A model generated the notes under the pieces. It did no database searches. It saw only the letters and a program-made list of their open reading frames with translations, and had not been told where the DNA came from. From positions 62,001-126,000 of the forward strand of contig JAJKFJ010022624.1 of the NCBI GenBank assembly GCA_027382625.1: a stretch of DNA of 64,000 nt, in the 5' to 3' direction. Within the stretch, counting starts at the first letter, position 1. Every line of letters begins with the position of its first letter. Origin of the DNA: Tetmemena sp. SeJ-2015 (lineage: Eukaryota > Ciliophora > Spirotrichea > Sporadotrichida > Oxytrichidae). The position numbers were made by a program, and so were the translations under genes. Positions 16,440-62,359 of this stretch are shown piece by piece.

Positions 16440-18170
16440 ATGTATTAGAACTATTCCCAGCCATCTGCGCCCTCCACAGGAAATCTATCTTACAAAATCC
16501 AACTCTTCATCAGCTGCAGAAAGCTCAAGGACATGGATGTAGTGGGCCTCACAGATCCAGTCTGCATCCTTCATGCCAGAGATAACGAGCAGGCTCCATG
16601 GAGAAAGGTAGACTAGACAGAGACCATGAAGGATAACCTAAACCCAGATTTTGAGAAAAGCTTTACACTTGAGTACTAAACTTATAATGTCCACTGAAGT
16701 CAATTAGAAGATTGCATTAGATTTACTTTGAGAAACATCAATATCTGAAGTTCGAAGTTTGTGATGGTTTGAACTCTGATAAGGAGCTAGATGTACTTGG
16801 ATCGGCAGAGACAACAGTAGGAAATATCGTGGGAGCCAGAAACTAAACTTTTGTGGGAGACTTGAAGAAACCTGGTCATGCCAAATCTCATGGAACGATT
16901 ATCGTCAGAGCAGATTCAGTTTAAGAATCTAATTGGGATGTATCGCTCAAGATCTCAGGAAGGAATCTCCCCACCTCAGCTGGATGCCTTTGTGGAGTAG
17001 ATAGCTTCTTCTTTGAAATCCATAGAGGCTCACTCTAGGACCCTCTTCTGTTCTTGAAGGTGTACGATAGCGACCCTATCTAAGGCACAGTCAATCCAGG
17101 ATTCCCTGGACTTAAAATGAAAGGCTAGTAGCTCTGCAACTCAGAGAGAGACTTACCACTGTAGGTCAAGTTCTTCAACAGATAAAATATGGAAAACAGG
17201 CTTGTAGGTGTTGCTATTATTACTTTGAACGAGATCTAAGATAGAAGAGAGTTTGAGCTGAGAAACCCCACCACTAATCAACACGGCGGGCACCTTGTCA
17301 TTAATGAATGTTCTATCGTGGAGAAATCTTCTTTCGTAGATTACTTGAGAAGTGGATGGTAGATAAGTTTAGGTGTGGCAGTTGATTTCACCGGCTCTAA
17401 CGGGGACTACACTAGACCAGATTCTTTGCACTTTTTAGGGGCCTTCAACTAATATGAGCAAGCTATTGGCTCAGTGGGCTCTATTTTGGAAGCTTACGAT
17501 TATGATAAATCCTTCCCAGTCTATGGATTCGGAGGAATCCCAAGATTTGCTGGCCAGACAAATGTGAACCATTGCTTCCCATTGAATGGCAACCCTGTTC
17601 AGCCAGAGGTTCTTGGAACTTCAGGAATTCTTTCTCTTTATCGCCAGAACCTACCTGGTATTTAGTTGAGTGGCCCAACCTATTTCGCACCTATCCTCAA
17701 GCAGTTTATTGAAATTGCAAAGGCAAGAGCTCAATTCACAGTTTAAATTCACCATTAAGGATTAATAAATAAGCTTTTGTGCTATTAATTTACAACATCT
17801 TGCTGATTATTACAGATGGAGAGATCCACGACATGTAGCAAACTAAGAATCTTTTAGTTGAGGCTTCAAGAATGCCCATCAGCGTCATTATCATAGGAGT
17901 GGGTAATGAGCAGTTCAGGCAGATGATTGTGCTTGATGGAGACGAGGCAGTGTTGAGAGATGCTTACGGCACTCCAGTGGCCAGAGATTCAAATCTCTAT
18001 CTTTCTTTTTATTAGATGTAGTTCAGTTTGTAAAGTTCAAGGAGTACGCTTTGGATCCTTCACGATTGGCCGGGGAAGTGCTGAAGGAGGTTCCTGAGCA
18101 GCTTGTTACTTTCATGACTAACTACGGAATTAAGCCTGCTCCTATTCAGCAGCCAATAAACCCAGTGTGA
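16440..18170 (+). CDS. Copine 3 of 3 (C2A-C2B-vWA), nearly intact
   Basis: Third and most complete copine. Starts MYQNYSQPSAPSTGNLSYKI at 16440. The C2A domain (residues about 15-140) has the calcium-binding-type loop with MDVVGLTDPVC and NLNPDFEKSFTLEYQTYN, an intron (16689-16720), then IYFEKHQYLKFEVCDG. C2B begins near IIVRADSVQESNWDVSLKIS and includes FFFEIHRGSLQDPLLFLKVY. The vWA domain (from about 17330) carries SGWQISLGVAVDFTGSNGDY with the DFTGSN metal-site motif, VYGFGGIPRF, HCFPLNGNPVQPEV, ILLIITDGEIHD, IIVGVG-type IIIGVGNEQF and RDVVQFVKFKEYALDPS. TGA at 18168. Only two IESs are resolved (ATTAAT, AGAT), both at positions shared with another copine. It is the best reference for reading copines 1 and 2. 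Confidence 0.92.
16689..16720 (+). other. GT-AG intron in copine 3 (32 nt)
   Basis: GTCCACTG...CATTAG between YQTYN and IYFEKHQ, at the same protein position as the copine 1 intron. Confidence 0.8.
17761..17783 (+). other. IES, pointer ATTAAT
   Basis: ATTAAT at 17761-17766 and 17784-17789; excision gives HHQGLIYNILLIITDGEIHD. Confidence 0.88.
17985..18013 (+). other. IES, pointer AGAT
   Basis: AGAT at 17985-17988 and 18014-18017; excision gives VARDVVQFVKFKEY. Confidence 0.88.
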
Positions 18171-18413
18171 GTTAAGATTCAGATTCTTATATTAGTCGTC
18201 AAACTATCATATTTCATAATTCTACAGTTTCTAACCAAGCAAACTAGATTTATTATGAGTCAGGAAATAATTTGAATAGAAGGTATAAGAAGTCAAACAT
18301 AATAAAAAGAGACTGGTTAGTTGTCATACATAAATAATTTATTTAGGCTTAAAAGGAAAAATATTTCTTATAATCTTAACTTTATTCTAAATAAACAAAC
18401 CTTACTCTATATT

Positions 18414-20628
18414 ACCCAGCAAAAGAGAATGATAGCTACTGCAATAAGTACAATAGCCACTGCATTATATAAAGCAATAGCAATTATAAATCTCAACTTT
18501 ATATCTCCATCAACCACCTAGGTTTACTCTAAACAAATATACAGTTAGTTTTATGATTACTCCTACGTTTGATTCTTGATGATAGTGTTAGTTTAATTTT
18601 TTCCACCAGTCGATTCGCTCTGTGGATTAAATACAGGCCTCTGAGATAAACCTTTAAAATAAGTTTGAAATCCATTTTAAATAGCTTACAAGGGTTTGCT
18701 GCAAGTACTTTGAGTTCAGTAAGTGATAAATTTAGAGAGATGGATTTACTGAAGCCTGTGAGGTCTGTTACTCTTAGAGGAGTATTCTGATTCTGATTGA
18801 TCTGCTCCATAATCTGACTTTCTTATTGAGTAAAGTCAATTACCAGCTCAGCATAGTCACTCATATCTTGGCCTAGAGCATAATATAAATATTTATTTGA
18901 GAGAGCGTTGTCATCATACATTGTTGACAACAAGAAGAACGAGCATTACTCTTCTTTGGTAATTCTAAACATCATCTACCCCGATATCTGCTATTCTTAA
19001 AACCTAATCATAACCTTTTTCAAATGAATTTAATTAGAAAGCAATAGTAAGGGAAGGAGTTCTGTCTAAAGTAGACTGAACAAAATAAATAGTCTATTTT
19101 GTCTGCAATATTCTGCTGGCTGGAATTAACTCCTTGGAATGAACCACAGAATGAAAAGTTATAATTCGCTTTATTGATTATCAAATTCTGCTGCATTAAA
19201 ATTAAAAAAACTGAGACAATAAATTGAGCATGACTAAAGTTTGAGAGTCCTAGGTTATGTCATTAAATTGGAGTGAGAAATTGAAACTACCTCCCTATGG
19301 AATTTATGACTAGATAAATAAAAGGAGAAGATAGGATTTTAATCTCCACCAGAGCTTGAAGAATAATCCCCAGGAAAACTTGATTTAACTCATAAAATAA
19401 TTATTAAATTATAGAGAAATGATAGTAGGTTATCTGAGATCTCAAATGTCAGAGCAGGCTCAATTGTTTCCTCATTACTTGTAATGTAGAGATGCTAGGC
19501 TATATATTGGCAGGTTCTGTTCTGATCTAAAGCCCAAATTAAAAAATTAAGTTAAAATTTTATTTTTAAGATAAAGTATAAAATTTAAAAATAAAAAATT
19601 TTTTTTAAAAGGGCCTTTGGTTTCTTCTTATAAATTTAAAATTTCTAAGGGCTCTCCTGTCTTTGGATCCGTGTATTGAATGCTGTATATTTAAGTCAAG
19701 AAGATAGGTTATTAAAAAGAGAAATAATTGTCTACTAATTAAAAGGTCTGTGATATGGATCACAGTTCGGATCAGGACTCGTTCCATCTTTGCATTGATC
19801 TGTGTAATATTCTGGAATTTGAGTAGCTAAGTTCAAATTAAAGTTCCCCTCTAGATAGTTCATAGTCATCGAGATGTCGTAAGAATTCAAATCGTCTTAA
19901 GCTCCGTCATAAATTAGCAGATAGCTTTCATAAATATTTAAAGTGCATTCTGTTTAGAAATTCCACAAACTTAGTTGAAGTATAAATTTTTGATCAGATA
20001 AGGGGTTTAATCATAATTTTTACAGTAAAATTTTATTTGATGGGTTTTTCTTGGGAGAATAAGAATTTCCAAAGATAGTAAAGTTAATTTGAATACTCCC
20101 ATTTTGATCTATTAGGCTGTCATCCAAATGACTGACTTCTTCTCCGACTCCTGAACTATCAATTGTTGTATTCATTGCCTCAATTTCTATAGGTTTGGAG
20201 TATGTATCGATATTTGAACCCCACCCATACACACCTTGCAGGGTAAAAAAGCCAGTTAGATTTGAAGTATTATTGATGAGGAGACTTAGTGATCCCATTT
20301 CTTGAGCACTGCTTAGTTCATTGTCAGAAAAGTTTATTAGTAGTACAGAACCTTTTTACTTCGGCAACTGAACCTTAAATTCATAGCTGCCCCAACTGTA
20401 CTAGTCAAATATACAAATTTTGATATATTTTAATCTATAGTTTTGAGAGAGGGCGATAGCTCCAGGGTTACCTAGTTCGCACTGCTGCAGGCTTTAAAGT
20501 TGGGCTAGTGCCGGTAAAAGAAGGAAAATAGCCAATTTAGCAAGTAGTCTTTATTTGTTAGAGGAAACCCTAATAATACGACTACTACGATGCAACACCA
20601 TGGAATTATAATTAAATACTTTCATCAT
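18414..20628 (-). CDS. Membrane protein A: signal peptide, ectodomain and transmembrane segment (scrambled gene, main part)
   Basis: Type I membrane protein of unknown family. Minus-strand ATG at 20628 (MMKVFNYNSM); a hydrophobic signal segment RLLAKLAIFLLLPALAQLQS follows about 26 residues later. The ectodomain is polar, with Asn-linked sites and scattered Cys: blocks LINNTSNLTGFFTLQGVYGW (20280-20200), YESYLLIYDGAQDDLNSYDI (19920), CKDGTSPDPNCDPYHR (19780), DQNRTCQYIAQHLYITSNEE (19500), SMTMNYLEGNFNL and ALGQDMSDYAELVIDFTQQE (18850). Several frame changes mark IESs. Near 18500-18415 a strong transmembrane segment begins KLRFIIAIALYNAVAIVLIA and ends ILFCWV. There the coding sequence stops at an 11-bp pointer (ACCCAGCAAAA on the plus strand, 18414-18424), and its continuation is the inverted segment at 20740-21123. 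Reading straight on gives a different, implausible tail ending at 18293. Confidence 0.75.
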
Positions 20629-20739
20629 TAAAACTCCTCTGCTGTTTTATTCAAAATCAATTCTCAATTCATATTCAACTCTTTCCCATCAATAGCATTA
20701 TAATCATAATAAATTCATAATTTTACAATTTAGAATTAG

Positions 20740-21123
20740 TTTTGCTGGGTGAGGAGGAATCGAATATAGTTAAGGAAAGACGTAGAAGCTGTGAAAGAAA
20801 TCGAAAAACAAGTATAGCTCAAGAGAGAAGAGCTTCATGATTTTGAGAATAAAATATTAGAGAATGAGCAGCTGATTAAGGAAGAAAAGAAGAAATAGAG
20901 ACATGAATATGAAGAGAAGTTAAAAGCAGAGAAGTAAAAGATGAAGAAGTTGTTTGAAGATGGACACGATTACTTGACTAACAAGTCTCAAACTACTGGC
21001 AGTTACTCTTTTGATTTGAATTCTTTAATTAATTTTAAGATTTATTCTACTGGTGGCTCCAACATGAGTTTATTGTTTGGCTCACTCAATAACAAGTCTA
21101 ATTTTCTTAATCAATAAGACTGA
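20740..21123 (+). CDS. Inverted last coding segment (cytoplasmic tail) of membrane protein A
   Basis: Plus-strand block with no start codon that opens with TTTTGCTGGGT (20740-20750). This is exactly the 11 bases at the end of the transmembrane block of membrane protein A on the other strand (18414-18424). Joining through the pointer gives, in frame, ...ILFCWVRRNRIQLRKDVEAV, so the membrane segment is followed by a basic stop-transfer sequence and a 70-residue coiled coil (KEIEKQVQLKREELHDFENK ...). The block runs to TGA at 21121-21123, although the final 40 residues could include a small IES. It lies about 110 bp upstream of the gene's own start and points away from it, a classic inverted macronuclear-destined segment. 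Confidence 0.75.
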
Positions 21124-26931: not shown

Positions 26932-29900
26932 TCACTAGAGCTAAATGTCCACGAAATGAGAGATCATGCAAATGTTGTGGTTGATTAAGTCCTCAAGTTC
27001 TTCTTAATTCTTAGCATTCTCATTCATCACAACTTTAACTTTCTCCATGAGGGATTCGTCATCAATCAAGATATCGTAGTGAGATCTTAGGAAGCAATTT
27101 ATCAAGGATTGTAAGAAGTCTATGTTTCTCTTTGACCTCAAACCAGCGATAAAGTAGTCTAGCATTTGCTCGAGCTAAAATTATTCGTCAAAACATACAA
27201 AAACTTACATATTTGTTGGGATTTTATCCAGCTCCATCGAGCTCAAACACTGACAGTGAAAGAATCTCCAATTCGATTCCAGATGGACTGAGGATTTAGA
27301 AGAGCTCAGTAATTTTTTAATGCTGATTTTTCTCCTCTTTAAGTATGGTCTTGAGCTTATTTGAATCTGATCTCTTCTTGTTTGAATCTTCACCTTCGTT
27401 TTTCTTGATTTTAGAGAAGAATTGCTCCTTCAAGATATCTGGGGTAGCATCATTCTCAGTGACTATTTTCTCTATATCGAACAAAAAGAAAGGTGCCTTG
27501 GGTAATTCTTTCTTGGGCATTAAAGGCTTATTTCTCTCCTTTATTTGCTCCAGATTGTAAATGAACTTAATGACATAATATGAGTAAATAAATGGCTTGC
27601 CACTTTGAGTATGGCTGAGTTGAAAGCTTGACATAGCTTCTTTTCTGTTTCTCATTTCTCTCGAGCACACCATCCAGTTCTTTGAACTTTTGTTGTAGTA
27701 AAGTTTTGTCCTCTTTTTTTTCTTACTTAGACCCATCTTCAAGATGATAAAAATCTTTGTGGCTTTGCTTGACTGAGTCAGTCTCAGATAAAGTAGGTAA
27801 GTCAATTAGAGTGGGATATTTAGGAGAGCTTGAGATTATCAAATTTTAAAAGTGCTGCCTGTTTGACCAGAGATACACTGCTTTGGAACCAACGTGGGAA
27901 GTTGCCAAGAATTCACCGGAAGGAGAGAAATCGATAGAGAGTGGTGCTTGCTTGAACTTTATCCAGTCAACTAGTTAGCCAGTGAGGATATCCCAAGCCC
28001 TCACTGATTTATCGAGCGATGCACAATGATGTATTTAGAGTCAGGCTGCGAGAAGCAAATGTCTGTGATTTTATTCTCAGCGGCATCGTTGAACTGTCTT
28101 ACTCTTACAATGCCAGACTTCACATTCAAAATTGTTAGGGAGATATCTGCTGAAGTGATCGCAATAAGATCATTCATTCTATTGTAGACGAGGTTCTCAA
28201 TAGGGTAATCGAGAGTAAATGTCTTCATAAGTTCTCTTCTGTAAAAGTCCCACTGCTTTATTGTGCAATCTAAGGATGAGGATACTAAAATCTTAGTCAA
28301 AGCATCTATCCCTAATCCTGTCACATTTTTCTAGTGAAGCCTGTCTCCAGCTAGCTTGTTTATGAACAACCCTAATATAGAAAATTATAAAATTTAATTC
28401 CCTCTATCTTTGCCACTTTGCATGTTAATCTTTTGTAGTGACCCATTCTCAAATCCAATTACTGCAAAGTTTCCACATTAGCTGACAGCCACAGCTGTTA
28501 CCTTAACTTTGGGGTAAGATACTTCAACAGGAACCTTAGAAATAGAATGGTTTGCTGCTGACCATAGGAATGGAGACTTAGCTTTATCTTAGCATGTGAT
28601 CAAATTTTACCAATCTCTTTCTCTGAACTCACTGAAATCAAACTATGTAACAACTCCGAAGCCAACATCTCCTGTCTCCTTGCTCAAGTCAGATCTTGTA
28701 AGATTCTTAACAATAAATTTTTCTTTTTGGAAAAGTTCATGCTTTGAAATTCGTTAAGCAAGCTTATGTCTCTTAAGTTTCCATCCTTTGCACAAGATAT
28801 AAGATTTCTAGCACCCTAATTAACTGGATCATCTTTGCCTCCGTAAAACCTAATTCTATGAGGAGCCTCAGCATGCCCACATCTCTCCTTGAGAATCCTT
28901 GGCTGAGTGATTCCCTTTTCAAAGAACCACATTTTTAAAGAATTGTCTTCCTCTGAAGAGCTTATCAAAATGGGTTCGTTAGCCATGAAAGAGAGATGAG
29001 ATACTTTCCTTCCATTATGAGGAAGCTAGAGAATTGAGTAGATTTTTTGCTTATTCAGATCCCATAAGACGATATTTTAGCTTCCATCAGTTCCTGAACT
29101 TGTGCTAGCCAACAGACTTATTCCTAGAGTGGTGTCAGTTGAGAAACTTATGCTTTGAATTCCTCCATCAGTAGAGGTGAAGGTGAACAAGATCTGGTCG
29201 AATTGAAGATTGCAGACTCTAATAAAAAGATGTATAAATTAATTTCGCCATCTGAAAAACCAATTGCTACTGTATGCACGACTGGACTTTGGACGATTTG
29301 AGTAATTTAGGCGTTTTCCTTTCCCTCAATGATTCTTTTGAAGTCATAGATTTTTTCTCCCTCAATTATGTTCCAAAGCTCGGCCTTTCCTTTTCCAGCA
29401 AATAAGAGCTTATTCACATAACTAGTTGGATGCATCACAAGCTAGAAGTCTTGAGCAAACATCAGCTTTTTAATTACTGACCAGTCTTAATGTTGAAGAT
29501 AATGAACTCTCCGCCCTCAGCTAGAGAGAAGATAAACTCTGAGGCCAAAATGAATTTAACTACTGGCTTTGTGTGGCCCACATATTGCATAGTCTTGTGC
29601 ATTTTCTTCCAGGCTACTATTGAGTTATTATCAAGGGCAGTGTATATGAATCCATCTTGAGAGGCCTCAATCCACAATATCTCGTTTTCTATGAAGCGCG
29701 ACATGTAAACTAGATTTAGCTTAGTTGTATTGTAAACGTAAAAGGCATGACCACCAACGCTGCTTGCAATTAAGATGTCTTAGTCGCTCTTGAAATATGC
29801 AGAATGGAATATCAGATGTATAGTAACCAAAGGCTCTGTAGGGCTCGAAAAGAAGAGAGTGCTTTACTTCATCTTATTCTAATTCGGAATTTCTCAAATG

Positions 29901-30044
29901 GAGTTTCCTATTGGTGTTCATTAGTTCGGGATCTTCAATGAGATCGTTATGCTTGGCAATTTTCTATTTGAAAGAATCAATAGAGTTAGAAGATGCTTCT
30001 CTCTATCTCTTTGCTAGCAATTTTCCTTTTTGTGCTGATTGCAT
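26932..30044 (-). CDS. UTP21: WD-repeat U3 snoRNP protein UTP21/WDR36
   Basis: Component of the small-subunit processome (UTP-B subcomplex) in nucleolar 18S rRNA processing. The start at 30044 gives MQSAQKGKLLAKRQREASSN, followed by the family's N-terminal signature HSLLFEPYRAFGYYTSDIPF. WD-type propeller blocks follow: DILIASSVGGHAFYVYNTTK, YTALDNNSIVAWKKMHKTMQ, GLGIDALTKILVSSSLDCTI with KQWDF, and AEGGEFIIFNIKTG. Near 27520 comes IKERNKPLMPKKELPKAPFF, equivalent to the KRNKPxEPPKxPExAPFF linker of UTP21. The C-terminal helical domain is LDYFIAGLRSKRNIDFLQSL...INCFLRSHYDIL, ending DIQLQ at TGA 26932-26934, matching the Utp21 C-terminal domain. IESs interrupt the gene at several places; near 29800 (after DIPFC) the frame slips by one base, possibly a sequencing error. 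Segments are in normal order. Confidence 0.88.
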
Positions 30045-30128
30045 AATTGCTTATTTAATAATTTATTTACTTAGCAATCAAACATTACTGTAATAAGATT
30101 ATATTTAAAGAATGCAACAATTCTTAAT

Positions 30129-52348: not shown

Positions 52349-52416
52349 TATTATAGATAAATTTTAAAAGTTTAGAAGTGGGAGCAGAAGGTGAAATAAA
52401 CTGTAAGGGAATTGAT
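52349..52416 (+). repeat. Left terminal inverted repeat
   Basis: Inverted partner at 54151-54219; the inner 36 bases are nearly identical. Confidence 0.8.
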
Positions 52417-52597: not shown

Positions 52598-53520
52598 TCA
52601 CTTTGTAAGTCTGGGCCTCTTAGCCTTTTGTTTTTCTTTTTCGTCATCTCTCTTTAAGCATGCTTTGCATACTGGTGGAGTGTGCTATGTACTGAAGCTC
52701 TCCTATGTTTTGACCTTGTGGCAGACCTCGCACCTGATCTTTTTGTGCCTCCCATGCCTGCTCACCTTCTGCTTCCTCCTAAAAAATCTATTAGACCAAT
52801 TTTTAAAGGAGAATGCAGAGATCCTTGCTCTCAAATGATTAATACATGCTGGAATGAACTGGGTTTGAAAGAATGACCACCACAAATTGCACCAACTTAT
52901 GTAAAAATTGTCCACTTTCATATTCATGATAGACCCAGTTCATCATTGCTAGAATTCCACTTACACTCTGAACAGAGAGCACAATGAACTCCGCTGCATC
53001 TCTCATAAGATATCTCTTCTCTAGAGGCCCCGGTTTCTAAGTGCTCCTTGACATGCCTGTGCCAATGGTTTCCAGTGATCACCTTCAGTGTGCTGCAGCC
53101 CTCGTAGCGACAATGCTTATGGAATGTACCACTTTTGCTCACAGGGCCTCCCTCTGACTCACTTGACTTCTCCTATTTCCCCATGTATTGGTCATCTTGA
53201 TTTCGCTCTCCTCATTTTTAATGCCTTTCCTTCCTCTCTAATTAAATTCTTGGGGTTTGATCTAGGTCTCCTTAAATTCTTGAGGCACTTGTTCTTCATG
53301 ACATATTCTTTCCTCTACACAAATCCTCCTCCTTCTCTTCCAAATCGCTAGACTCTGAATTGGTGGAACTCTCATCAATCTCCTCACCTAATAGAGCCAC
53401 AACTGCTTTCTATGGTGCTTTGCCTTTTCTGGTGAGGGTCCAACCTCATGGCTTGTCTTAGGATGACTCTTGATTGACTTGACCGTGTTAAATTTCGCAT
53501 TTAATTTGGTGTGATTTGGG
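52598..53520 (-). pseudogene. Broken zinc-finger-type region of the element
   Basis: Minus-strand blocks in changing frames: SIKSHPKTSHEVGPSPEKAK (53470), an acidic block EEIDESSTNSESSDLEEKEE (53360), a C2H2-like finger block HCRYEGCSTLKVITGNHWHR with HVKEH and CSGVHCALCSEC (53120-52950), and a CxxC...CxxC block CEVCHKVKTQESFSTQHTPP with VCKACLKR (52725-52650), ending at TGA 52598-52600. The frame shifts between blocks are not explained by pointer repeats I could find, so the gene looks degraded. A Cys/His-rich DNA-binding region fits a transposon protein. Confidence 0.5.
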
Positions 53521-53556: not shown

Positions 53557-54189
53557 TCAATGTATTTGCAAAGTACTCTCCTGTTCCATTCTAGAAGCGG
53601 TATCTTGGGAGGAGCTAGGAGCCAAATCCCATAGACTTGAAAACTGTGAGCTGGAAGAATATTCGGCTATTCCACACACTATGGCAACACTCCTGTGGTT
53701 CACCATCTCTTGCTTCTTCAGATAATCTTACATATCTGCCAAGAATGCCTTGGTGTATCCCTTCCTCCTTTAGCATTCAGCTGCCACCATGTGCAGGATG
53801 TAGCAATTGAGGTCATAAGCTAGTTTTTCAATGTAGAAAGTTGCAGCAAACGGCCTGCAGATACGAGGCCTGACCTTTACCATTTTGAAAGCAATGTACC
53901 AGTTAGCAAGAGCTTCCTCGCTTACATTCTCAAACTCCCCCCTAGTCTTTAAAGAACTCATGATCGTCTGAGAGCGATTAGAATAGCGTTCTGCCACAAA
54001 TAGAGTATCCTCTTTTCTTGAAGAAGTGCCCTGGGTGCTTGTAGATACCTTCGAATTCCAATCGTGAAAGGAAGGAGCTAAAGATAGAGTACTCCTGCAT
54101 GCCTGATTCATCTTCTTAGCACATTTATATTTAAATAGGAGAAGGACCTTATCAATTCCCTTACAGTTTATTTCACCTTCTGCTACCAC
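53557..54189 (-). CDS. Element open reading frame 1, unknown
   Basis: Continuous 210-codon frame from ATG 54189 (MVAEGEINCKGIDKVLLLFK), with its first codons inside the terminal repeat, to TGA 53557. TAA/TAG are read as Gln, for example at the AECQRRKGYTKAFLADM junction. It contains NRSQTIMSSLKTRGEFENVS, EEALANWYIAFKMVKVRPRI and a block FIEKLAYDLNCYILHMVAAE-like FYIEKLAYDLNCYILHM. No transposase DDE/D pattern could be assigned. The TGA overlaps an ATG of the next frame (TGATG), and coding continues in shifted frames downstream, so this may be the 5' part of a longer, now broken, protein. Confidence 0.5.
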
Positions 54190-54219
54190 CTCAAAACTAT
54201 TAAATTCCTATCTATAATA
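54151..54219 (-). repeat. Right terminal inverted repeat
   Basis: Inverted partner of 52349-52416. Confidence 0.8.
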
Positions 54220-58309: not shown

Positions 58310-58961
58310 TCAATTTAAAATATATATATTTTTTTAGAAATTGCAACATTTATTTTCAAATTTAATAATCCTATGATTACACTGACCAAAAGAAATATCT
58401 TTGAATTAATTTTCAATATATTAAAAGGAATTTTCCTCCTTTTTTGAATAAATTTGAATAATTTTGAGCTGGAAGTTATCAATCCATGTTATGTTACAAA
58501 TTGTATAGTCTTAAAATAAAATAGAATGTAAATGTTTTTTATTGACTCCTCTGAGATTCTTATCTCTTTTTAGCAATTTAATTTCTTAAACTCTAAAATT
58601 ATCTACTAAAATATTTTTACTGATTTTTTACTCTTATTATTAATTAATAAAATATCTAAATTTAAATTAATCATGAAATAAAAGATTGAATTTATTTTGA
58701 GAAAAGATAATAAGATAATTCTGAATATTCACTTGGGGTACCTAAGAAATATTCTCCTCCATAAAAAATTGCAAATTCTTACTATTGCTAAAATATTTTT
58801 AAATTAATTATGCAATTTATCAATTAAAACCAATTTTTCTGAGTTTTTATTATAGCAATACCTGTTTTATTCTTTGTTTAATATTCGAGATTAAATTTTT
58901 TAATTCAAAGTTTAAAAGTTAAGCCCTAAACCAATCATTTCTCTTTTAAAACACTTATCAA
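58310..58961. other. AT-rich region upstream of topoisomerase III
   Basis: About 650 bp, very AT-rich with long T and A runs; no coding block and no clear repeat. It should include the promoter and somatic chromosome end for topoisomerase III. Confidence 0.5.
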
Positions 58962-61900
58962 ATGAGTAAAAACCATAAACCACATTCCAAGCAGAATGGG
59001 CATCGAGGCAATCACCCTAACTTCAGTAACCACAATAGTAACTACTCTTATCAAAACTCAAATCCACCAGGGTTTAAAAATTTAGTAGCGCTCAACGTCG
59101 CAGAGAAACCTTCTGTTGCAAGAGCTATCGCTTAGTTTCTCAACAAAGGAAAAGGAGAGCCAAGGAAATTAGATTCCAAGGCCAAGTACAACCCAGTCTT
59201 TAAGTTTATGACCAAGCTTGACAAATCTAACTTGGATATGATTGTGACATCGGTCTGTGGCCACATCATGGAGTATAAGTTTCCTCAGAAATGTAAAGAC
59301 TGGCTAAAGACCAAGTACAAGTAACTTTATAAATGTGAGCTGGAGAGCTAGCCGTCTCCTTAGAACTTAGATATAGTCAAGAATTTGCATACCTATGGTT
59401 TGCAAGCAGATATGCTGATTTTGTGGCTTGATTGTGACAGAGAAGGAGAAGCAATTGCTTTTGAAGTAATAGATATAGTCAAGTAAATTAAACCGAGCAT
59501 TCAAATCAAGAGAGCTCATTTTTCAGCCTTGACGAAACAAGATATCACTAGAGCAATTACCTCCAAGTTAACTGATCCCAATAAGAATCAGGCAGACGCT
59601 GTATTTGCAAGACAAGAGATTGACTTGAGGATTGGAGCTAGCTTCACAAGATTTCAGTCCATGAAGTTCAAAGATATTATGGGAGCTAATTCTAAGTAGG
59701 TCCTGAGTTATGGGCCTTGTCAGTTTCCTACTTTGGGCTTCGTTGTGGAAAGATACATTAAGATCGCAAAATTTGAGCCTGAGAAGTATTGGACTATAGT
59801 TCTATAGATGCCCAAGCCTAAAGAAATGCTCGATGAAGAGATGGCGAGAGCTGGTTTCAAAGATGAGGAGGAGGATGAAGAAAATGAAGCACAGGAAGAT
59901 TAAGAAGATAAGGAAAACCCAGAGGTGTAAGATAATTGCGAGGAGAATGACTTAGATGAGAAGCCAAAATCTTAAAAGAAGTAGTCAAGTTAGTACAACG
60001 ATGATTCAATCATGGAAGATGAAGATTAAGGAGAGGATCAAGAAAGGGATTAAGAAAAAGATGATTAACAAAAGACTGATGAGCAATCTACAAGAGAAGA
60101 TAGAACAGAGGATATCAACGGCGAAGGAGATGAAACAGACTAAGAGCAGTAGCAAAATGAAATAGAAAATACGAATTAAGAGCAGGATAGCAACGATATA
60201 GAGGACGATGAAACAAGAGATGAGACACCCACAAAAAGCGAAATTGAATTAAAAGATGCCAAAGAAGAAGAAAAAGAAGCAGAGGCTCCAAAGTCAAAAA
60301 GGTACATTTATTTTTATTAACTCTTTTTAGGAAAGGATTCTTTGAGCCTAAGAAGCCTAAGAATATCATCTAATTTGAGTGGTCTAGATATAGAACCTTT
60401 GATTAGTAGTTGTGTGAAATTCTTCATGAAAACATATCTGAAGAGAGCGAGGCCGTCGTAACCAAAGTCCAATCGAAATAAAAATCCAAGATCAAGCCCA
60501 TTCCATTAAACACAATTGATTTTTAAAAATTGGCATCGAGAAAGTTAAGAATAGGCTCTCATAAAGCTATGGATCTGGCTGAGAAGCTCTATCAAAAAGG
60601 GTATATATCTTATCCAAGGACAGAGACAAACATCTTTCCTTAAATGAATCTTTAGGAAATAGTAAGGGATCTTGCTAAGAACAACACTTTCGGATATTTC
60701 GCAAAGAAGATTATCAGTGGAGAGGCGTATGGGCCTCCTAGAAAAGGAAGACTCGATGATAAAGCGCATCCTCCGATCCATCCAGTGAAAAATGCTTAAA
60801 AGTCTGATTTGAAAAATGAAGAATGGAGAATCTATGAAATTATTTGCAAGCATTTTCTAGCCTGTCTTTCCAAGGATGCATTAGGAAGCGAGACTAAAAT
60901 TGAAGTATTGATTGGAGGAGAAACATTTAAAACTCGAGGACTAGTCATTGAAGAAGCAAACTGGCTTGAGATATATGCACCGTATGAAAAATGGGCTGAT
61001 AATACTTTGCCAAATCTATAAGAGGGAGATACCTTTATCCCTTCTCTAATTCAGATCTAAGAATCTCAAACTCAGCCACCTAAGCTGCTAAGTGAGGCAG
61101 ACTTAATTAGTAGAATGGATCAGCATGGAATTGGTACTGATGCAACTATTCACGAGCATATTAAGACAATCTAGGACAGAGGCTATGCTGTAAAGCAAGG
61201 TTAGCACTTTACTCCTACTGTTCTAGGGTTGAATCTGGTAAATGCTTATGAACACGTCGGAATCGAGCTATATAAACCCAATTTAAGATCTAAAGTTGAG
61301 ATCGAGCTTAAATAGATCGAGCAAGGCCTCAAAGACAAGAAAGATGTGCTTAAAGACGCTTTAAAAGAAATGTGGAGGATTTTTAAAAATCTCAAAAGCA
61401 GATCAGAAGAAATGCAAGACTTCCTCACATCTTAGATAAATAATCCAATAGTGCCTCCTCCATTTTTCGAAGAGAAAGTTTAAAAGAGGTTAAGTGGAGA
61501 GGAGAAAGGTAAAAATGATGCTCCATTTTTTAAAGAGGGCTATGATATAAAGGCAGAGGATTTCTTTAAGACTTCTGATCAGATTGAGAAGAAAATAAGT
61601 GAGGAAAAGAAGTATTCTCAGGATTTAGTCTTTGACAGCTAAGAGCCGAAAACTGTACTTGGAAATACTTAGTTCATGCTATGTGATAAGTGTAAATAGT
61701 ATCCTGTCTATATCAAAATGGGAGGCTCGGGCTACTTATTTGCAACTTGCGCTGGCTTTCCCAAATGCAAAAATTCAATCTTCTTGCCAAGAAATGTTAA
61801 GAACTTCTCCGTGACTGATGAAAATTGCTTGCCGTGCACCTCATCAAGAGACATGGAAGAGGTGAAGAAGTTTAGGATTTCCTTCTTTACAAGTGGAGCT

Positions 61901-62359
61901 CCAAATAGAGAAGAGCTGCTTCAATTAATGTAGAACTGTAACTCAACCTACTGTATCTTGGGAACATGTGATGAGAACTATCAAAAGATTAAGCAGATTT
62001 GCAAAGCCATTAAAATACCTCCTAAGAGGGGAACATTTGCCGATGAAATGACTGAAGAACAGAAGTTAATGAGAGATGAAGAGAGGTAGCGCTGGTATGA
62101 TAAGAAGAGAAATGGTAAATTCTTTGGAAAGAGGAAATTCTAAAACTCCTATGTTGATAGTGAGGGTTAAACAAATTTAAATCGCTACCAGAAAGGTTTT
62201 AATAATAACTTTGGTGGAAAGAAGGGCAGTAAGGGAGAGAAGTCTTTTGGTGGTGGTGGGAAAAGAATAAGAGAAGATGGAGGGTGCCCAGAATGTGGAA
62301 AAAAGAGACACTCTGCGAAGAGCGAATGCTCAAGAAACAAAAAGTCAAAATTTGAATGA
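58962..62359 (+). CDS. TOP3: DNA topoisomerase III (type IA), alpha-like
   Basis: Type IA topoisomerase that passes single DNA strands and, with RecQ helicases, resolves recombination intermediates in the nucleus. One continuous frame of 1,122 codons interrupted only by a 29-nt intron (60302-60330). The TOPRIM domain begins [20 protein letters not shown] (residues about 40-60; active-site Glu in AEKPS) and contains [17 protein letters not shown] with the DxDxE-type acidic cluster. Next are [20 protein letters not shown] and [19 protein letters not shown]. The catalytic Tyr lies in [16 protein letters not shown] (near 60600). Then follow KAHPPIHPV and [19 protein letters not shown]. The C-terminus has a zinc-type CDKC...C block (near 61680) and a glycine-rich end with [15 protein letters not shown], a zinc knuckle. 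An unusual insertion of about 130 very acidic, Gln-rich residues (59860-60290) splits the domain before the catalytic Tyr. No IES was found in 3.4 kb. Confidence 0.95.
60302..60330 (+). other. GT-AG intron in topoisomerase III (29 nt)
   Basis: GTACATTTAT...TTTTTAG; removal joins PKSKR to [17 protein letters not shown] in frame. Confidence 0.85.

Follow-up and report, generated by a model that had tools for sequence, protein, structure and literature searches.

A putatively scrambled membrane-protein gene with an inverted last coding segment in the germline DNA of a hypotrich-like ciliate

The 64-kb stretch of DNA analysed here (the window) contains a minus-strand gene, gene A, whose product looks like a type I membrane protein, with topology and function predicted from its sequence. 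On the opposite strand, beyond the start of gene A, lies an open coding block that we call the tail block, and the end of gene A and the opening of the tail block carry inverted copies of the same 11-bp sequence. A neighbouring plus-strand copine gene served as a control for the germline state of the DNA. The coordinates of these features are collected in Table 1.

Table 1 Features of the gene A locus and of the copine control gene (window coordinates).
Feature	Coordinates	Strand	Description
Copine gene, germline control	16712..18170	+	Frame counted from 16712, which may not be the true start; TGA 18168-18170
Copine insert, 47 bp	17742-17788	+	AT-rich, TTTA direct repeats; placed first by hand, then by gene-model script
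Copine insert, 29 bp	17985-18013	+	AT-rich, AGAT direct repeats; placed first by hand, then by gene-model script
Colinear continuation of gene A	18293..18413	-	Runs to TGA 18293-18295; non-coding score; G+C 0.20-0.21
Candidate pointer, copy 1	18414..18424	-	Plus-strand letters ACCCAGCAAAA, minus-strand reading TTTTGCTGGGT; end of transmembrane coding stretch
Gene A body	18414..20628	-	ATG 20628; signal-peptide-like start (by eye); transmembrane stretch at end; introns, possibly IESs
Likely GT-AG intron, 38 bp	18652..18689	-	Ahead of transmembrane stretch; chosen in 2 of 3 settings of one gene-model script, not chosen by the other
IES-like insert, 79 bp	19533..19611	-	AT-rich, without GT, CTTT flanks; placed manually, removal restores frame; scripts gave other borders
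Likely GT-AG intron, 53 bp	19683..19735	-	Placed manually; chosen in 4 of 4 and 3 of 3 settings of two gene-model scripts
Possible GT-AG intron, 54 bp	19970..20023	-	Placed manually; holds first in-frame TGA; gene-model scripts preferred alternatives
Gap between ATG and pointer copy 2	20629..20739		111 bp; would hold 5' leader and telomere-addition site
Candidate pointer, copy 2	20740..20750	+	TTTTGCTGGGT; opens the tail block
Tail block, predicted inverted last MDS	20740..21123	+	127 codons, then TGA 21121-21123

The window comes from the germline genome of a hypotrich-like ciliate. TAA and TAG are read as glutamine and TGA as stop, with 48 TAA, 33 TAG and 0 TGA among the 2195 codons used for training, the absence of TGA coming partly from the choice of open frames. 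Neither of the two copine inserts has GT-AG ends, and both are probably conventional IESs. The Pfam Copine match covers positions 1-217 of 218 with the AGAT insert removed, compared with 1-189 when it is left in; the scanned version used the hand placement of the first insert (23 bp with TTAAT). Recovery of the inserts by the gene-model script was not a blind test, since its codon table had been built partly on the copine frame (up to 17761), and a wrongly set end phase led the script to introduce a false frameshift at the very end of the gene. Elsewhere in the assembly, the 20-nt C4A4 telomere CCCCAAAACCCCAAAACCCC stands exactly at one end of the contig in four of the ten telomere-repeat loci that we fetched (L021, L022, L024 and L026), the reversed control for this repeat being the same string and hence uninformative. 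A length of 20 nt is that of hypotrich somatic telomeres. The copine inserts and the telomeres support the germline setting independently of gene A. Transposases add weak support: 150 of 921 candidate DDE_3 matches in the genome were scored, and five of the ten fetched loci (L028, L030, L031, L032 and L036) have a G+C content of 0.47-0.60, against 0.26-0.41 in 2-kb steps along the window, so that these contigs are possibly bacterial or otherwise foreign. The four telomere-ended contigs suggest that a few somatic chromosomes are present in the assembly.

The body of gene A is likely one gene, and its internal structure is given here as candidate models. The gene-model scripts disagreed on its introns and IESs, several settings excised the signal-peptide region, and one run ended early. 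A Pfam scan of the first exon found nothing, and in the genome search two parts of gene A each matched at their own locus only, with no paralogue among the best candidates scored. Protein homologue searches returned no match with the whole predicted protein at E 10 or better (8000 candidates scored), with residues 48-330 of the ectodomain at E 10 (1325 candidates) or with the C-terminal part, residues 560-771, at E 1 (7206 candidates), an absence that says little because the middle of the query is a guess and the coverage of hypotrichs in the protein collection is uncertain.

At the end of gene A, TTTTGCTGGGT supplies the codons for F-C-W plus two bases of the codon that follows. Against AT-rich sequence the gene scores 0.36 per codon in its first exon and 0.28 in its last stretch, but against all frames the corresponding values are 0.00 and -0.00. 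Because this second score is near zero, the end of the gene is placed only loosely: scoring against AT-rich sequence puts it best at 18401, five codons beyond the pointer, and scoring against all frames puts it at 18497. The coding contrast at this end is present but modest. Hydrophobicity peaks in a 19-residue stretch whose last residue is the phenylalanine of the pointer's first codon, and this stretch is coded wholly from the gene A side. The first-pass annotation of this DNA had proposed that joining gene A to the tail block makes a full membrane segment followed by a basic stop-transfer sequence. The segment, however, is independent of any join, and although a charged sequence does follow in the joined form, the colinear alternatives (direct reading, or reading after a possible intron) both bring basic residues as well, so the stop-transfer argument does not discriminate.

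The tail block reads as coding in one of six frames. Codon usage was learned from those open frames of the window that have Pfam matches, one of which, an ankyrin frame, matched only under the cut-off; gene A and the tail were left out of this training. With the resulting table, the claimed frame scores 0.12 bits per codon and contains 0 TGA, while the five other frames score negative and the other two plus frames have 7 TGA each. G+C content is 0.33 in the tail, compared with 0.23 in the 120 bp before it and 0.20 in the 120 bp after it, and both flanks are negative in the plus frames. A second codon script gave +47.6 against AT-rich sequence and +14.5 against all frames for the 127 tail codons (+0.37 and +0.11 per codon). 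The best start of the tail against all frames is 20779, 13 codons inside the block, and against AT-rich sequence it is 20305, far upstream, probably an effect of the antisense of the first exon of gene A, which is likewise richer in G+C. The coding edge of the tail is thus compatible with 20740 without being fixed at that position. The encoded sequence is charged, with 24 K+R and 21 D+E among 123 residues. Its description as a coiled coil is not well supported, with 10 of 24 a/d positions hydrophobic in the best heptad register of the first 85 residues, and a Pfam scan of the tail yielded matches only under the curated cut-off (best E 0.0015, to a helical domain). Searching the genome with the tail found the tail itself as the sole credible match, together with four matches at E 0.74 or worse, and no somatic copy. 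The contigs behind the 36 fetched loci are all at least 11.4 kb long, which suggests that short somatic chromosomes, as expected for gene A, may be missing from the assembly.

The two 11-mers lie exactly where they had been annotated and are exact reverse complements, and the bases flanking them differ between the two copies on both sides. The 11-mer occurs 35 times on both strands of the 146-Mb genome, three of them on this contig, compared with 62 occurrences of the reversed control string; at this density, simple arithmetic predicts a copy in either orientation within a given 2.3 kb in about 1 of 1800 cases. In dinucleotide shuffles of the locus, an inverted match of at least 11 bp arose in 6 of 3000 trials when 30 bp were kept on each side of both 11-mers, in 40 of 3000 when 60 bp were kept around them and in 44 of 1500 when 100 bp were kept, figures that are optimistic because both ends had been picked in the first-pass annotation after looking at the sequence. 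Between 17500 and 22500 there are 18 inverted pairs of at least 11 bp, of which the pointer pair alone has 5 G+C and the other 17 have 0 to 3. Across the 64-kb window, 19 inverted pairs with at least 5 G+C lie within 3 kb of each other; 30 shuffles gave 12.1 such pairs on average (range 6-21). An inverted 11-bp repeat by itself is therefore not rare in the window, but its placement at two coding edges, in frame, is. The earlier argument that such a match is unlikely by chance consequently holds for the position and fails for the repeat alone; since such pairs are common, the weight of the repeat comes only from sitting at two in-frame coding edges, which are themselves located only to within tens of bases. 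No direct repeat of at least 10 bp starts at 20730-20764 anywhere in the window, and at 11 bp the pointer pair is the sole match within the window that starts in this interval. Inverted 10-bp matches near the start of the tail, none reaching 11 bp, include 20729/18960, 20730/59686, 20735/6000, 20756/27271 and 20763/45058. A 13-bp inverted match, AAGAATTCAAATC, also links 19881-19893, inside gene A, with 21013-21025, inside the tail, and is probably due to chance.

Joining gene A to the tail through one copy of the pointer gives a continuous frame, ...IILFCWVRRNRIQLRKDVEAV..., that runs to TGA 21121-21123 with no earlier stop, as had been claimed. Inverting the segment 18414-20750 in a script gave a single open frame that connects the last stretch of gene A, by way of the pointer, with the tail; the second hybrid copy of the pointer then stood 111 bp from the ATG. 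Gene scrambling is a familiar feature of these ciliates, and in gene-assembly theory one inversion between inverted pointers suffices to unscramble such an arrangement. The exact inverted match at two coding edges, the open joined frame and the coding character of the tail in one of six frames lead us to the reading that the locus is probably an ordinary scrambled hypotrich gene in its germline (micronuclear) form, with a single inverted last MDS. The central proposal of the first-pass annotation, that the last MDS is inverted and is joined by way of an 11-bp pointer, remains the best explanation, and its germline setting is borne out, even though several of the supporting details proved weak or wrong.

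In this scrambled arrangement, the body would be read on the minus strand from 20628 to 18414, and the MDS for the cytoplasmic tail would lie inverted on the plus strand at 20740-21123, just past the point where the gene itself starts. As the macronucleus develops, the two pointer copies would recombine and the intervening 2.3 kb would be inverted, which would bring body and tail into line, with a single copy of the pointer retained where they meet. Telomere addition upstream of the ATG, at a site predicted from the layout of the locus, would eliminate the remaining hybrid end together with the left flank, and the process may be guided by template RNA, as described for Oxytricha. It had been suggested that the tail must be flipped and moved by about 2.3 kb, but a single inversion between the two pointers already yields the open frame, so that no segment need travel; an inversion in place would be enough.

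A rather unlikely alternative is that the tail belongs, as an MDS, to another scrambled gene with the rest of its segments elsewhere, that gene A ends colinearly or after a short intron, and that the 11-bp match is due to chance. Among the scrambled chromosomes of O. trifallax catalogued in one comparison, translocated MDSs are commoner than pure inversions (63.8% versus 21.4%; PMC10901763). The colinear frame of gene A is indeed open for 40 more codons, basic in character, to the TGA at 18293-18295 at which it had been annotated to end; a sequence GTAATA...TTTAG after the pointer could be an intron; and the window is rich in inverted 11-mers. Set against this, the 40 sense codons of the continuation score as non-coding, with totals of -14.0 (-0.35 per codon) against AT-rich sequence and -6.6 (-0.17 per codon) against all frames, the 20 codons that would end gene A after the possible intron are also non-coding (-8.7 or -1.0), no competing 11-bp repeat in the window starts near the opening of the tail, and inverted matches were infrequent in the shuffles with the 30-bp setting.

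It is very improbable that an independent plus-strand gene instead begins at an ATG at 20590 and ends with the tail. This ATG is in frame with the tail, 50 codons ahead of it, without an intervening TGA, and is the only in-frame ATG from 20302, the point back to which the tail frame is open, to the tail. The tail is thus not strictly start-less, as it had been called. The 50 codons from 20590 to 20739, however, score as non-coding (-9.9 against AT-rich sequence, -5.5 against all frames) with a G+C content of 0.24, and the start would overlap the first 13 codons of gene A on the opposite strand. Inverted chimeras tend to form at microhomology when micronuclear DNA is amplified, and the contig could in principle carry a false inversion of a colinear germline locus, but such an artefact is extremely improbable, as it would need two breakpoints, each with a full copy of the repeat, where a chimera would be expected to consume one copy, and a single locus was found for the tail and for the two parts of gene A. 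Optional inversion, with the uninverted gene encoding a short colinear tail (40 codons to TGA 18293) and the inverted gene the long charged one, is likewise a highly doubtful reading. Were it true, the cytoplasmic end of the protein would be determined by the choice between two ways of processing the DNA at a single pair of inverted pointers.

Read as a scrambled gene with one inverted last MDS, the locus resembles published hypotrich examples. In the account of scrambled genes in PMC2394655, pointers of 3-19 bp are described and inverted MDSs are among the rearrangements, MDSs 1 and 2 of the actin I gene of Stylonychia lemnae being inverted. Like the actin I genes of S. lemnae and Oxytricha trifallax described there, the locus would combine an inverted MDS and a short pointer with conventional IESs. 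Unlike actin I, which has several permuted MDSs and a known somatic product, gene A would have one inverted pair, seen from the germline side alone, and the inverted part would lie at the 3' end of the gene instead of the 5' end (PMC2394655). According to the catalogue cited above, inversion without translocation accounts for 21.4% of the scrambled chromosomes of O. trifallax, for 69.4% of those of S. cf. sulcatum and for 37.7% of those of H. grandinella (PMC10901763). The predicted inversion of the gene A tail without translocation is of the same type as these Oxytricha, Strombidium and Halteria chromosomes, which were, however, classified by comparing both genomes, whereas gene A is known from its germline form (PMC10901763). 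At 11 bp, exact and inverted, the gene A pointer lies inside the range of 2-20 bp given for pointer lengths in PMC5940158. For the hypotrichs surveyed in PMC7586852, short IESs have a G+C content below 0.2, compared with about 0.3 for MDSs. The 4-bp repeats of the copine inserts and the candidate 11-bp pointer of gene A fit the pattern of these published pointers and IESs.

The kind of gene is already known and only the locus is new, so that gene A would leave the understanding of scrambled genes as such unchanged. If confirmed, the locus would be scrambled in a very simple way, having a single pair of inverted pointers in its coding sequence, and would thus offer a clean case for studying inversion; it would also show that the germline sequence is sufficient for predicting a scrambled junction.

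Scans of the 64-kb window for tRNA genes and Rfam families found none. A Utp21/WDR36 gene lies on the minus strand at 26932-30077, with Pfam-matching frames at 27191-27805 and 28004-28795 on one strand, and appears unscrambled; its outer limits and the part above 28.8 kb were set by eye. A 54-nt inverted repeat (52363-52416 and 54151-54204; 93% complementary, with a 34-bp exact core) encloses minus-strand open frames, and a third, partial copy is found at 52762-52785. Four of these open frames were scanned and have no Pfam match over a cut-off, and the repeat may belong to a small transposon with terminal inverted repeats or be a long inverted pointer or MDS duplication. Finally, a DNA topoisomerase gene (Toprim and Topoisom_bac) at 58785-62359 is read in two overlapping plus-strand frames, which indicates that it is interrupted or frameshifted at least once.
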